34,128 nt of DNA from an uncultured Clostridia bacterium (GTDB lineage Bacteria > Bacillota > Clostridia > Oscillospirales > Acutalibacteraceae). A program made the position numbers and the translations under genes. Position 1 is the stretch's first letter. Each line of letters begins with the position of its first letter. The DNA is taken from positions 1 to 34,128 of the forward strand of contig CAMVBR010000005.1 in assembly GCA_947165755.1 (NCBI GenBank). The letters run 5' to 3'. The notes under the pieces are model-generated. The model had not been told where the DNA came from. It did no database searches and saw only the letters and a list, made by a program, of their open reading frames with translations. Positions 3,530-25,243 of the stretch are shown in pieces.

Positions 3530-3916
3530 TTACTCTGCTTTTTTACCGGATTTGGCTTTATCGGCAATGCCGGAAACCTTATCGATCACATCCGGGATCA
3601 TATTCACGATGCGTTCTGCCGCATTATCGTTCGCCGTGATATGCTTCAAGGTAACCTCTCCGTCTTTCAGTACAAGAAAGGCCACGGGGTTGATCGTAAC
3701 GCCGGCGCCGCCGCCGCCGCCAAAAAGCTCGGCATTGGATTTAGACGGAAAATCGGCACCGCCGCTGGCAAAACCGTAGGTGACCTTAGATACGGGAATG
3801 ACCGTGATTTCTTCGGAAAGATGAATGGGCTCACCGATGATGGTGCTTACGTCCACAAGCTGACGCACTTTTTCGATCGTGGTAGCGAGGATTCCTGCTG
3901 CTGATTGTTCTTTCAT
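3530..3916 (-). CDS. ytfJ: Sporulation protein YtfJ/GerW family
   Basis: FASGGADFPSKSNAELFGGGGGAGVTINPVAFLVLKDGEVTLKHI is the characteristic glycine-rich YtfJ motif. Confidence 0.9.
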   Translation of the reverse strand: MKEQSAAGILATTIEKVRQLVDVSTIIGEPIHLSEEITVIPVSKVTYGFASGGADFPSKSNAELFGGGGGAGVTINPVAFLVLKDGEVTLKHITANDNAAERIVNMIPDVIDKVSGIADKAKSGKKAE

Positions 3917-4656
3917 TTTGCTTCACTCTTTTCTTCAGATTTTATATTTTTATTCCGGTTGCCTTCCGTTTTTTTCGCACCGGAAATTTTAACAACAAGC
4001 TTGATAAGAACACCGAATAAAAGTTTGAATACATAACCGAGCGTTATCCCCATCAAATATATCGGCGTAAAATGGAATGCAGTTACAAAAGAGGCTTCAC
4101 TGAAACGGGCGATATAATCAGGATAAATATTAAAATCATATTTTTTCATCCTGCATTTTGCGGCAAGCGCGCCAAGCAAAGGAAACAAAACAGCGCAAAC
4201 CTCACCGTAGTAAATTGCCGTTTCTGCCGCGTCGGAGCGCGTGCATCGCACATCCAGATACAATTCATCGATCACAAAGCCGCGGATCATATTACCGAAA
4301 AACGTTTTTGTATACCCGAGCACGCTCTGCAAAATGGAAATCAATCCGTCGATACCTTCGGCGTTATACAGCGTTTGCAGCAGATCATTCTTTTCTTTCG
4401 GCTTCTGCGTTTCTGCTTCTTCTGTATTCTCCGGTTTTGTATTATCTTCTTTCTGCGGCTCCGGTGTTTTCTCTTTCTTTTTCTTCCCTTTACCGTTCGT
4501 CGGATACAGTCTGATTTTAAGAAAGAGCCACTTCAACAGAACAGAGGTGTTCTCGGAGGAGTATTCTATACGGAATCTTACCTTTACGCAAAGGGCAAGT
4601 ACGATCAGCGCAAGGATACCAAGCAGGACCCAACCGATAATTTTCAGTACGATCAT
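3913..4656 (-). CDS. DUF2953 domain-containing membrane protein
   Basis: N-terminal TM segment, VRFRIEYSSENTSVLLKWLFLKIRLYP, K/E-rich linker; position between scpB and ytfJ is typical for DUF2953. Confidence 0.75.
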   Translation of the reverse strand: MIVLKIIGWVLLGILALIVLALCVKVRFRIEYSSENTSVLLKWLFLKIRLYPTNGKGKKKKEKTPEPQKEDNTKPENTEEAETQKPKEKNDLLQTLYNAEGIDGLISILQSVLGYTKTFFGNMIRGFVIDELYLDVRCTRSDAAETAIYYGEVCAVLFPLLGALAAKCRMKKYDFNIYPDYIARFSEASFVTAFHFTPIYLMGITLGYVFKLLFGVLIKLVVKISGAKKTEGNRNKNIKSEEKSEAK

Positions 4657-8590: not shown

Positions 8591-10004
8591 TTGAAGGCGT
8601 TAGGGGTAAAAGAACCTCTACCGTTGTGCCTTCGTTCAATTTGCTGTAAATATTCAGCTTGCCATTGTGAAGTGAAACAAGCTCATCACATACGGCAAGT
8701 CCGATGCCGGAGCCTTTGACCGAGCCGTTCGGTTTATAGAATTTCTCTTTGATATGCGGAAGATCTTTTTCGGATATGCCGCATCCGGTATCTGAAAACT
8801 CTATTCGCAGCTCGCAGCCTGAAATGGACGCGATAATTGAAATCTTGCCGCCTTCGGGCGTATATTTGATCGCATTATCGAGGATATTCACAAATACCTG
8901 TTTGATTCTGTCAGGATCCGCATTTGCAGGCGCAGGAAGATCCGGGGTGCTGTAAAACAGGTCGATCCCTTCTCGAATAGCCCTGTCCCGCAATACGAAT
9001 ACGGCTTCATCCAATTCTGCGAGAATATCGATCTTTTGAATGCGCAGCTGCAGGCTGCCGTTTTCAAGACGGGAGAAATCAAGCAGGTCTTCCACAAGGG
9101 AATACAGACGTTCCGATTCAAACATGATCACCTTCAACCCCTGCTTCAGGGTTTCATCGCCGGTCTCGTTCAGGGTAAGAAGCGTTTCCGTCCACCCCTT
9201 GATCGCAGTCAGTGGTGTGCGCAGCTCATGTGAAACGGTGGAAATAAAATCATTTTTCAGCGTTTCCGTTCTTGAAATCTGATCCGTCATATAGTTGATG
9301 GATTCCGTCAGCTCCGTGATCTCGTCATACCGGTTCGCCGCTTCGATTCTTCCGGAGTAGTCGCCGGCGGCGATTCGTCTTGTTGCGTCGTTGATCTTTT
9401 TTACCGGAACCAGAATGGACCGGATAAAGAACAAACCCGATATAATAACCAAACCGAGCGCGAACAGAACCGCGCTGAACACAGCCACGGCAACGGAGCG
9501 AAGCCTGTGATTGATATCCTGCATGGAGATCAGATACCGAATTGCGCCGTTGCTGTTGTCCCCTGTTTTCGGCAGCAGCACTGTGAGCGCCATAAACTTC
9601 TCTCCGGAGGCAAGATATCCCTCACTCAACCCGCGCCCCGATGGGGAAGACATGGCCGTTTGATAATCGTTGTCGTCGGCGGCTTCGGCCGGAAAACCGG
9701 TGGACGTAATAATGATTTCCCCGTTTTTATTATAGATCCATACCCACGCGGTATTGATCTCCGAGAAATTCTGCGCATAATCGCTTGCCCTTGCGGCAAA
9801 GGTATCGTTCGGCACGTTGATGTAACCGTTGAAATATTCCGCAATGGCGCTGCTCTGCCCCATAGCCTGCAGCTTTTGCTCTACGGTGGAATAATAGTAT
9901 TTACGAACCGATAACGTTATGGCGATTGCGATCGCAAGCAAAATAACCGAAATAACAAGCAAAGTTGTAAGGATCCATCGCTTTGTGATACCGCTTTTCA
10001 GCAT
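8574..10004 (-). CDS. Sensor histidine kinase (TM-extracellular-TM-HAMP-HisKA-HATPase)
   Basis: Two TM segments, HAMP-like region, H-box FISTVSHELRTPLTAIKGWTE, N-box NILDNAIKYTPEGG, G-boxes DTGCGIS and GSGIGLAV. Confidence 0.95.
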   Translation of the reverse strand: MLKSGITKRWILTTLLVISVILLAIAIAITLSVRKYYYSTVEQKLQAMGQSSAIAEYFNGYINVPNDTFAARASDYAQNFSEINTAWVWIYNKNGEIIITSTGFPAEAADDNDYQTAMSSPSGRGLSEGYLASGEKFMALTVLLPKTGDNSNGAIRYLISMQDINHRLRSVAVAVFSAVLFALGLVIISGLFFIRSILVPVKKINDATRRIAAGDYSGRIEAANRYDEITELTESINYMTDQISRTETLKNDFISTVSHELRTPLTAIKGWTETLLTLNETGDETLKQGLKVIMFESERLYSLVEDLLDFSRLENGSLQLRIQKIDILAELDEAVFVLRDRAIREGIDLFYSTPDLPAPANADPDRIKQVFVNILDNAIKYTPEGGKISIIASISGCELRIEFSDTGCGISEKDLPHIKEKFYKPNGSVKGSGIGLAVCDELVSLHNGKLNIYSKLNEGTTVEVLLPLTPSNERKD

Positions 10005-22999: not shown

Positions 23000-24286
23000 A
23001 TGAGAGCTGCATTTGTCACACTTGGCTGCAAAGTGAATCAATATGAATCCAATGCCCTTGCGCAGCTTCTGCGGGAAAACGGTTTTACGGTGACCGCCGC
23101 AGAGGAAGAGGCGGATGTTTACGTCATCAATTCCTGCACGGTCACAGCGGAAAGCAGTCGAAAGTCCAGGCAGGCGCTTCGGCGGATCAGGCAAAAGCAT
23201 CCGGATGCGATTATTGTATTCACAGGCTGCTACGCACAGGCTTACAGCAGCGAACTCGATTCTCTTCCCGAAGCGGATCTTATCGTCGGCACAAAACAGA
23301 ATCAAACGCTTCCGCAGGCGATCATCGACTTTGCGCAGGATCGGCAAAGAAAAACGCTTGTATGTGCACATAACAAATCAGACGCTTATTCCGGCGTGGG
23401 CGCTGCCGCCTTTGAAGGACACACCCGGGCGTTTATAAAAATTCAGGACGGCTGCAATCGTTATTGTACCTACTGCATCATTCCGAGATCCCGCGGCTTT
23501 TCGCGTTCCCGTCCCCTGAGCGAGATCCGGGACGAGCTTGCGGCGATCGCAAACAACGGATATAAAGAAGTGGTATTCGTGGGCATCAACCTTTCCGCCT
23601 ACGGTTTGGATACCGGAAACAGTCTTTGCGATGCGCTTATGCTGGCTGAAAACACCCCGGGGATAAAAAGGATCCGTCTCGGTTCTTTGGAACCCGACCA
23701 CATTACCGATACCGTGATTCGCTCCCTGAGAACCATAACAAAGTTCTGTCCGCAGTTTCACCTCTCCCTGCAAAGCGGCTGCGATCGCACGTTAAAACGG
23801 ATGAACCGACATTACACTGCGGGAGAGTATGAAACGCTCTGCACCGATCTGAAGAACGCTTTTCCGGGCATTTCCCTCACAACGGATATCATCTGCGGCT
23901 TTCCCGGAGAAACAGAGCAGGATTTCATGGAGACCGTTTCCTTTGCCGAAAAAATCGGCTTTATGAAAGTACACGTATTCCCTTATTCAAGGCGGGCCTC
24001 CACGCCCGCGGCAGATTATCCCGACCAGATAGAAAAACAAACGAAGCTGCGCCGCTGTGCCGATTTACAACAGGTATGCGACAGCATCCGGCTTCGTTTT
24101 TTGCAATCCATGATCGGAACCGAGCAGAACGTCCTTTTTGAAACGCCGAAAGCCGGTTTTCAAAAGGGGTATACCGAAAACTATACCCCTGTTTGCGTAA
24201 AAAGCGATACGCTTCTTACCGGGCAAATTCTGAAGGTTCGCATTACCGGCGTTTCAAACGGGATCTGCTCCGCGATCCTTGTATAA
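23000..24286 (+). CDS. mtaB: tRNA (N6-L-threonylcarbamoyladenosine-37-C2)-methylthiotransferase MtaB
   Basis: TLGCKVNQYES N-terminus, INSCTVTAES, radical SAM CxxxCxxC (CNRYCTYCIIPRSRG), TDIICGFPGETEQDF, TRAM-like end. Confidence 0.93.
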   Translation: MRAAFVTLGCKVNQYESNALAQLLRENGFTVTAAEEEADVYVINSCTVTAESSRKSRQALRRIRQKHPDAIIVFTGCYAQAYSSELDSLPEADLIVGTKQNQTLPQAIIDFAQDRQRKTLVCAHNKSDAYSGVGAAAFEGHTRAFIKIQDGCNRYCTYCIIPRSRGFSRSRPLSEIRDELAAIANNGYKEVVFVGINLSAYGLDTGNSLCDALMLAENTPGIKRIRLGSLEPDHITDTVIRSLRTITKFCPQFHLSLQSGCDRTLKRMNRHYTAGEYETLCTDLKNAFPGISLTTDIICGFPGETEQDFMETVSFAEKIGFMKVHVFPYSRRASTPAADYPDQIEKQTKLRRCADLQQVCDSIRLRFLQSMIGTEQNVLFETPKAGFQKGYTENYTPVCVKSDTLLTGQILKVRITGVSNGICSAILV

Positions 24287-24298
24287 CCCGGTTCCTAC

Positions 24299-24323
24299 AA
24301 AAAAAGGCCGCCCAAGGGCGGCG
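24299..24323 (-). terminator. Rho-independent terminator at the left end of the palindromic element (minus direction, downstream of upp)
   Basis: Minus strand GCCGCCC-TT-GGGCGGC followed by CTTTTTTTG. Confidence 0.65.
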
Positions 24324-24604
24324 CAAATTAGGGATAATATAGCCGCAGCGGCGCGCTTATTTGTGAAATACTGCGTTGCAGGGGACGGATATCCGCCAGG
24401 ATTATCCGTCCCCTGCGCCTTGTCTTTCGCAAAAATCGCATCCGCTGTGGTGCGAAGCAGTTTTTTGCCTGCTATTTTTTGTCCGAACAATCTGAACGGC
24501 ACAGGGTAATCCTGACGGATACCCTGCGCCGGACAGGCAGTTCGGGCGGAAAAGAGCGGCAAAGAACCTATATTATCCCTTATTTGCACCGCCCAATGGC
24601 GGCC
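24306..24604. repeat. ~300-bp imperfect palindromic element with 37-bp terminal inverted repeats (MITE-like or large bidirectional terminator/structured RNA)
   Basis: 24306-24342 versus reverse complement of 24568-24604: 32/37 identical. Internal hairpins at 24378-24416 (13-bp perfect stem) and 24502-24526 (10-bp stem, one bulge). Confidence 0.85.
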
Positions 24605-24613
24605 GTTGTTATT

Positions 24614-25243
24614 TTATTTCGTGCCGAATATTCTGTCGCCGGCGTCGCCGAGGCCCGGAACGATATACCCGTGTTCATTCAGGCAATCATCCTGCGCTGC
24701 GCAGTAAATATCCACGTCCGGATGCGCCTCCTGAAGCGCTTTCAGCCCCTCCGGCGCGGCGATGGTGCATACGAATTTAATATTTTTGGGGCCTCTCTTT
24801 TTGATCATCATGATCGCATCGATCGCGGACCCGCCCGTGGCGCACATGGGATCGACAACGATAACGTCGCGCTCCTCTATGTCGTGCGGGAGCTTGCAGT
24901 AATACTCCACAGGCTGCAGCGTATCGGGGTCTCTGTAAAGACCGATATGCCCGACTCTCGCAGAGGGGATCAGCGCTGTCATACCGTCTACCATGCCGAG
25001 CCCCGCTCTGAGGATCGGAATGATCGCAAGCTTTTTGCCCGACAGCTTCTTTACGTGCGCGGTGGCGATCGGCGTCTCCACGTCTACCTCCTTCAGCTCC
25101 AGATCTCTTGTTGCCTCATAGCACATGAGCATTGCGATCTCGCTGATCAACGCGCGGAATTCTTTGGAGGCGGTATTTTTATCTCTCAAAATGGAAAGCT
25201 TATGCTGAATCAAAGGATGATTGGTAATTGTGATATTCGACAT
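24614..25243 (-). CDS. upp: Uracil phosphoribosyltransferase
   Basis: [36 protein letters not shown]...; PRPP-binding region [15 protein letters not shown]. Start at 25243 for RBS spacing; ORF track begins at 25345. Confidence 0.96.

Follow-up and report, generated by a model that had tools for sequence, protein, structure and literature searches.

What occupies the gap between two convergent genes, an mtaB-like gene and upp, in an uncultured Clostridia bacterium of the family Acutalibacteraceae (order Oscillospirales)? The stretch of DNA analysed here, referred to as the window, is 34,128 nucleotides long (GenBank assembly GCA_947165755.1, contig CAMVBR010000005.1). A sequence-only reading had described in this gap an imperfect palindrome of about 300 bp with 37-bp terminal inverted repeats (TIRs), interpreted as a mobile repeat resembling a miniature inverted-repeat transposable element (MITE) or as a large structured RNA or bidirectional terminator. 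Our analysis partly supports that interpretation. With a probability of about 0.8, the gap holds a non-autonomous MITE-like element that is moved in trans and sited in the loops of terminators. Its insertion into terminator loops across the whole order and its near-constant length of 279 bp go beyond what had been proposed.

Dispersed copies, empty sites and scars

Mobility is the best reading because near-identical copies are dispersed in unrelated terminators, a short direct repeat borders them and empty sites exist. A short, gene-free sequence with TIRs, a 2-bp target repeat, dispersed copies and empty sites has the features of a MITE, and the suggestion of a MITE-like repeat was borne out by copies sharing the same ends, by the 2-bp duplication and by related species with empty sites. 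The host genome has a second copy (contig C3), which is identical at 275 of 279 positions and lies in a different terminator loop with different flanks. BLAST also found copies in other genomes of the genus, many of them in G012; dispersed copies with the same ends had been named beforehand as support for a MITE. Twelve full copies are present in 1.6 Mb taken from the 3-contig genome G272, and the same TIR type occurs in a public rumen Clostridia assembly (RGIG7952).

The mtaB homologue adjoins upp in several genomes of the same genus, in which upp also has DNA matches. In seven of these relatives (G009, G002, G012, G011, G023, G013 and G005) the gap holds only a short terminator hairpin, the outcome that the suggested empty-site comparison had anticipated for a MITE. 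Both genes are kept in these relatives. The comparison shows that the element is absent at the syntenic site, not the exact pre-insertion allele; the empty-site terminators differ in sequence because the species have diverged.

Remnants were also detected. The window's own genome carries a deletion derivative (G000:C6, about 8868-8934, corresponding to L029, about 3868-3934) that still lies in a terminator loop (AAAAAGCACC..GGTGCTTTTT), and a lone TIR in G272 (C2:944603) is a 36-bp deletion scar, again in a terminator loop. These scars look like decay after insertion.

Two unusual copies were found on one contig of G012. One is a 467-bp member (L156, G012:C65:14582-15048) whose two hairpins are separated by a further small palindromic insert of about 190 bp. 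The other (L061, G012:C65:26865-27120) is a composite whose ends carry different TIRs, of types 1 and 2; its outer flanks form no terminator, and it is probably a recombinant between two copies.

Limits and parts of the element

Alignment of 22 copies from the genus set the ends of the element at 24316-24594. The inverted arms and both hairpins (24378-24416 and 24502-24526) of the sequence-only reading are present, and the arms are complementary at 84% over 43 nt. The inverted match behind the 37-bp repeats is real, but these arms are composite, made of the target terminator halves, the 2-bp repeat and the element's own TIRs: the outer 10 bases on each side are a terminator half plus AA and do not belong to the element. 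The features are as follows.

24316..24594, no strand: probable mobile element, 279 bp, gene-free (ends from the alignment of 22 copies; second genomic copy)
24316..24342, + strand: left TIR (GGGCGGCGCAAATTAGGGATAATATAG) (18 of 20 outer bases match the right end; pairing of the TIR helix)
24568..24594, - strand: right TIR (same basis as the left TIR)
24314..24315, no strand: left copy of the 2-bp direct repeat AA, either duplicated target or recombination core (most sites have AA..AA or TT..TT)
24595..24596, no strand: right copy of the 2-bp direct repeat AA (22-copy alignment and direct-repeat count)
24299..24313, + strand: 5' half of the split bidirectional terminator, an A-tract and the GGCCGCC stem arm (sequence; fold of the joined flanks)
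24597..24622, + strand: 3' half of the split bidirectional terminator, the GGCGGCC stem arm and a T-rich tail (sequence; fold of the joined flanks)
24342..24464, + strand: left hairpin domain P2, apical stem 24378-24416 (covariance model R1, 142 bits, the window sequence being among those used to build the model; order-wide motif conservation)
24460..24567, - strand: right hairpin domain P3, apical stem 24497-24531 (self-complementary region; match to the P2 model)
23000..24286, + strand: mtaB-like tRNA methylthiotransferase gene, left convergent neighbour (428-aa open reading frame; name from the sequence-only reading)
24614..25243, - strand: upp, uracil phosphoribosyltransferase, right convergent neighbour (open reading frame; name from the same source)

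A terminator hairpin that predates the insertion has been split into the segments 24306-24313 and 24597-24604. When rejoined, the flanks fold as GGCCGCC-CAAT-GGCGGCC and give terminator-like matches on both strands; the target site reads AAAAAA-GGCCGCC-C[AA]T-GGCGGCC-GTTGTTATTTT, split in its loop, with AA on each side of the insert. The terminator is older than the element and is its insertion target. A bidirectional terminator had been foreseen here and does exist, but as this older target and not as a property of the element.

Inside the TIRs, the list of open reading frames shows no convincing gene, in agreement with the earlier description. P2 carries the conserved motifs ATACTGCGTTG / CGCCTTGTC / CAAAAAT and a junction, GTGCGAAGCAGTTTT, at 24450-24464. 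P3 is a diverged inverted copy of P2, the P2 model matching it on the opposite strand in the window and in other members. The element consists, then, of two back-to-back ends, each with a TIR of about 25 bp and a large conserved hairpin.

Insertion at the symmetry axis of terminators

The flanks of 50 insertion sites from about nine families were examined. Matched flanks pair at a mean of -16.8 kcal/mol, against -9.7 for swapped flanks (p=7e-15), and the junction falls in the apical loop in 86% of the rejoined sites, compared with 58% of the swapped joins. Swapped joins combine left flanks with the right flanks of other copies, a harsh control because A- and T-tracts themselves pair. Runs of A4 occur in the left flank at 36 of the 50 sites and in the right flank at 5, whereas T4 runs occur in the right flank at 41 and in the left at 8. 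For most copies, the rejoined flanks form a terminator hairpin with an A-tract before it and a T-rich tract after it; a few copies (G012 C52; G272 C2:1220405) lie in the T-tract just past the stem instead of in the loop. Long open reading frames terminate near both borders at many sites, and orientation relative to transcription follows no clear rule, with gene ends on either or both sides. The usual position of the element is the loop, or symmetry axis, of an intrinsic terminator, in most cases between gene ends.

A 2-nt direct repeat, usually AA or TT, flanks 36 of 56 copies; in mismatched flanks the proportion is 31% (binomial p=3e-7). The element could move by conservative site-specific recombination of a serine-recombinase-like kind, in which a circle whose inverted ends flank the 2-bp core recombines at an AA/TT core in the middle of a palindromic terminator. 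We regard this as rather unlikely; it concerns the mechanism only and is compatible with a mobile element. Joining the ends would give a palindrome centred on a 2-bp core. Nearly all G272 copies have a TT core in one fixed orientation; TT is also the core in most copies of genus g14, and AA in those of G081 and G124, a hint of recombination at an inherited core. However, G012 has both AA and TT cores with the same TIR type, no recombinase is linked to the carriers, and the target stems share no common sequence among sites.

A family across the order

A covariance model built on the left hairpin and run on 394 genomes of the order matched 64 of them, in 39 genera, and members from about 20 genomes were inspected at single-base level. 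At least nine families contain relatives with the same fold and the same terminator habit. In G038, which belongs to a family other than that of the window's host, the BLAST match covers the TIR only, while the full read-out shows the whole architecture to be homologous; all four genomes of its genus carry the element.

Total length is 275-281 bp in 52 of 56 members. The TIRs, mostly GGGCG...TAGGGAT, span 20-27 bp, with at least 16 of the 20 terminal bases complementary in the 56 members. Common to the family are a left hairpin with ATACTGCGTT / CCTTGTC / CAAAAAT, a central motif GTGC..AAGCAGTTTTG, and a right hairpin that repeats the left one in diverged, inverted form. Recognition of the right half by the left-half model, on the opposite strand and in many members, agrees with the likeness of the two hairpins that had been noticed in the window. 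A minor lineage (L213, L215, L216 and L218, in G333, G351, G130 and G428, and perhaps L214) shares the interior but has other TIRs; its borders show an apparent TA direct repeat and lack a terminator.

A different repeat of about 160 bp was seen at L212 (G295:C47:4573-4732), with the TIR GGAAGCTCTGATTAAAT and a single P2-like hairpin; this TIR has about twenty matches in G295.

Fold, covariation and strand symmetry

The window element folds beyond chance as RNA (z = -13.6) and as single-stranded DNA (z = -14.5), none of the shuffles folding as well. In a structure alignment (A3) of 33 divergent members, the consensus has 65 pairs, 61 of them with changes on both sides. Standard pairs make up 89.5% of cells and the covariation score is 0.63; shifting the partners by 1-3 columns lowers these values to 41-48% and 0.11-0.18. 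The TIR helix is 92% paired.

Such changes raise the question of whether the element is a structured RNA with a function in the 3' untranslated region, as regulator, stabiliser or bidirectional terminator, which the host maintains and which is only incidentally mobile. Compensatory changes in nearly all helices, conserved internal-loop motifs, constant length and a position at transcript ends are in favour of this idea, as is the window genus, where the plus strand folds better and G-U exceeds A-C. Yet the copies are dispersed and orthologous sites empty, and strand preference flips in genus g14, which favours the minus strand. An RNA selected on one strand is expected to tolerate G-U but not A-C. 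Order-wide, on the 61 pairs predicted on both strands, G-T and A-C are about equal (61 and 69, plus strand), showing no strand bias, and a one-strand RNA was rejected on these grounds. Nor was there any credible match to an Rfam 15 family, either for the element in the window or for those at 20 divergent loci. We therefore consider a host-kept RNA improbable. The compensatory changes proposed beforehand as its hallmark are abundant, but they occur in a mobile, dispersed element without order-wide strand bias.

Since G-T and A-C are equal on the shared pairs, selection on the fold appears to act at the level of DNA, or to the same extent on the two strands, and not on a one-strand RNA. Quasi-palindrome correction during replication could be an alternative source of symmetric covariation.

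Search for a mobilising enzyme

No transposase or other gene was found in any copy examined. Pattern searches and 1.6 Mb of G272 yielded no autonomous parent, that is, no TIR pair around a transposase, in genomes that are incomplete and with TIRs that diverge; the same 1.6 Mb contains neither an open reading frame enclosed by a TIR pair nor a multicopy transposase. An IS30-derived element was rejected, as NF033563 matches none of nine carriers while control genomes were positive. Spread by viruses or plasmids was likewise rejected: three TIR types are unmatched in viral contigs, and the element is unmatched in phages and plasmids.

Two candidate movers were suggested by the architecture itself. 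The inverted pair of hairpin units recalls the repetitive extragenic palindrome (REP) and the bacterial interspersed mosaic element (BIME), moved by a REP-associated tyrosine (Y1) transposase (RAYT), and Y1 genes of this type are present in G005, G012, G024 and G272 (L369, L370, L373, L374), although they are diverged and match NF047646 below its curated cut-off. However, at E<=0.001 NF047646 has no match in the carriers G038, G060, G061, G244, G428, G081, G391, G100, G155, G124, G186, G095, G053 and G037, whereas it matches in six genomes without a detected element (G004, G006, G009, G014, G017 and G021). No element lies beside the Y1 loci examined, and TIRs and a 2-bp repeat are not REP features. 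Missing from most high-copy carriers and present in element-free genomes, RAYT was rejected as the mover for want of association, and a REP/BIME-like origin is largely refuted and very improbable.

Like the guide RNAs of the IS110 family, the element combines a dinucleotide core with two hairpins whose internal loops are conserved, so a non-autonomous IS110/IS1111 derivative carrying a bridge RNA was considered. Against it, Transposase_20 (PF02371) was found in none of 22 genomes, with control genomes positive, which refutes it there at the family level; furthermore, the targets are alike in structure, not in sequence, and the loop motifs stay constant while the TIR type changes. The chance of such an origin is close to negligible.

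Several observations weigh against the MITE-like element moved in trans. A minority of sites have no convincing terminator and about one third have no perfect 2-bp repeat; the fixed-orientation TT core of G272 is not expected from an ordinary DDE transposase with symmetric TIRs; and the searches above disclosed no mobilising enzyme, neither a transposase-bearing TIR pair nor, in the 1.6 Mb of G272, a multicopy transposase. Moreover, MITEs usually lose interior sequence fast, whereas here both interior and length are kept across families, which suggests a further function.

Comparison with known systems

Like the bacterial MITEs (Correia elements, RUP, ERIC; PMC10969869), the element is short, gene-free, highly base-paired and bounded by TIRs, with a short target duplication and dispersed intergenic copies. 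Those MITEs vary in length and are often tied to an insertion sequence (IS) with the same TIRs (PMC10969869), whereas the present family keeps 275-281 bp and a two-hairpin fold over at least nine families, lies in terminator loops and has no parent IS that we could find. SPRITE of Streptococcus pneumoniae, a repeat with a relationship to rho-independent terminators, is enriched at the 3' ends of genes (PMC3049150). SPRITE, however, is itself a terminator-like hairpin with AAAA/TTTT ends and no known target repeat (PMC3049150), while our 279-bp element lies in the loop of a terminator that was already there and served as its target.

The IS that target REP palindromes (ISPsy8, ISRm22, IS1397, IS621; PMC1525189) also insert into extragenic palindromes and show a short direct repeat, ISPsy8 and ISRm22 inserting at the REP symmetry axis. 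They are autonomous and their targets are conserved in sequence (PMC1525189), in contrast to an element without transposase in terminators of unrelated sequence. Group IIC introns are structured mobile elements directed to intrinsic terminators (PMC4424553). These ribozymes and retroelements insert after the terminator motif (PMC4424553), whereas our element is mostly inserted in the loop, with TIRs and a 2-bp repeat; this, and the lack of an Rfam group II match, led us to reject a group IIC intron. BIME/REP sequences with RAYT are intergenic and non-autonomous inverted hairpin pairs as well, but the present element has no RAYT association and is a 279-bp unit with TIRs and a target repeat. 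In the open-access literature we found no description of this element family and nothing close to terminator-loop insertion by a bacterial MITE.

Proposed mechanism and implications

For the non-autonomous MITE-like element, we suggest that an enzyme encoded elsewhere would recognise the folded or palindromic ends and insert both of them at the centre of hairpin or palindromic target DNA. According to fold prediction, the two TIRs may then form a helix, in the transcript or in folded DNA, that stacks on the divided stem of the terminator. The terminator stem would close beside the U-tract and the T-tract would stay in place, so that termination would probably be kept and the cost of insertion to the host would be small. 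A terminator loop as a neutral landing place would explain why such sites are preferred and why copies have built up at gene ends. We tentatively raise the possibility, at less than even odds, of a novel transposition or recombination system that recognises folded DNA hairpins, those of the element's ends and of the target, and whose enzyme gene lies outside these ends.

The family is common in the order, with 64 of 394 sampled genomes, yet absent from Rfam 15. Its near-constant length and strand-symmetric covariation point to long-term selection on folded DNA, which is unusual for a MITE. The element offers a sequence-defined example of mobile DNA that seemingly spares its host by nesting in terminators whose stem can still close, and it raises the question of what enzyme places DNA in the middle of hairpins whose sequences are unrelated. 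If recognition does operate on folded hairpins, the element would be a structure that reads terminators as landing sites across a whole bacterial order.
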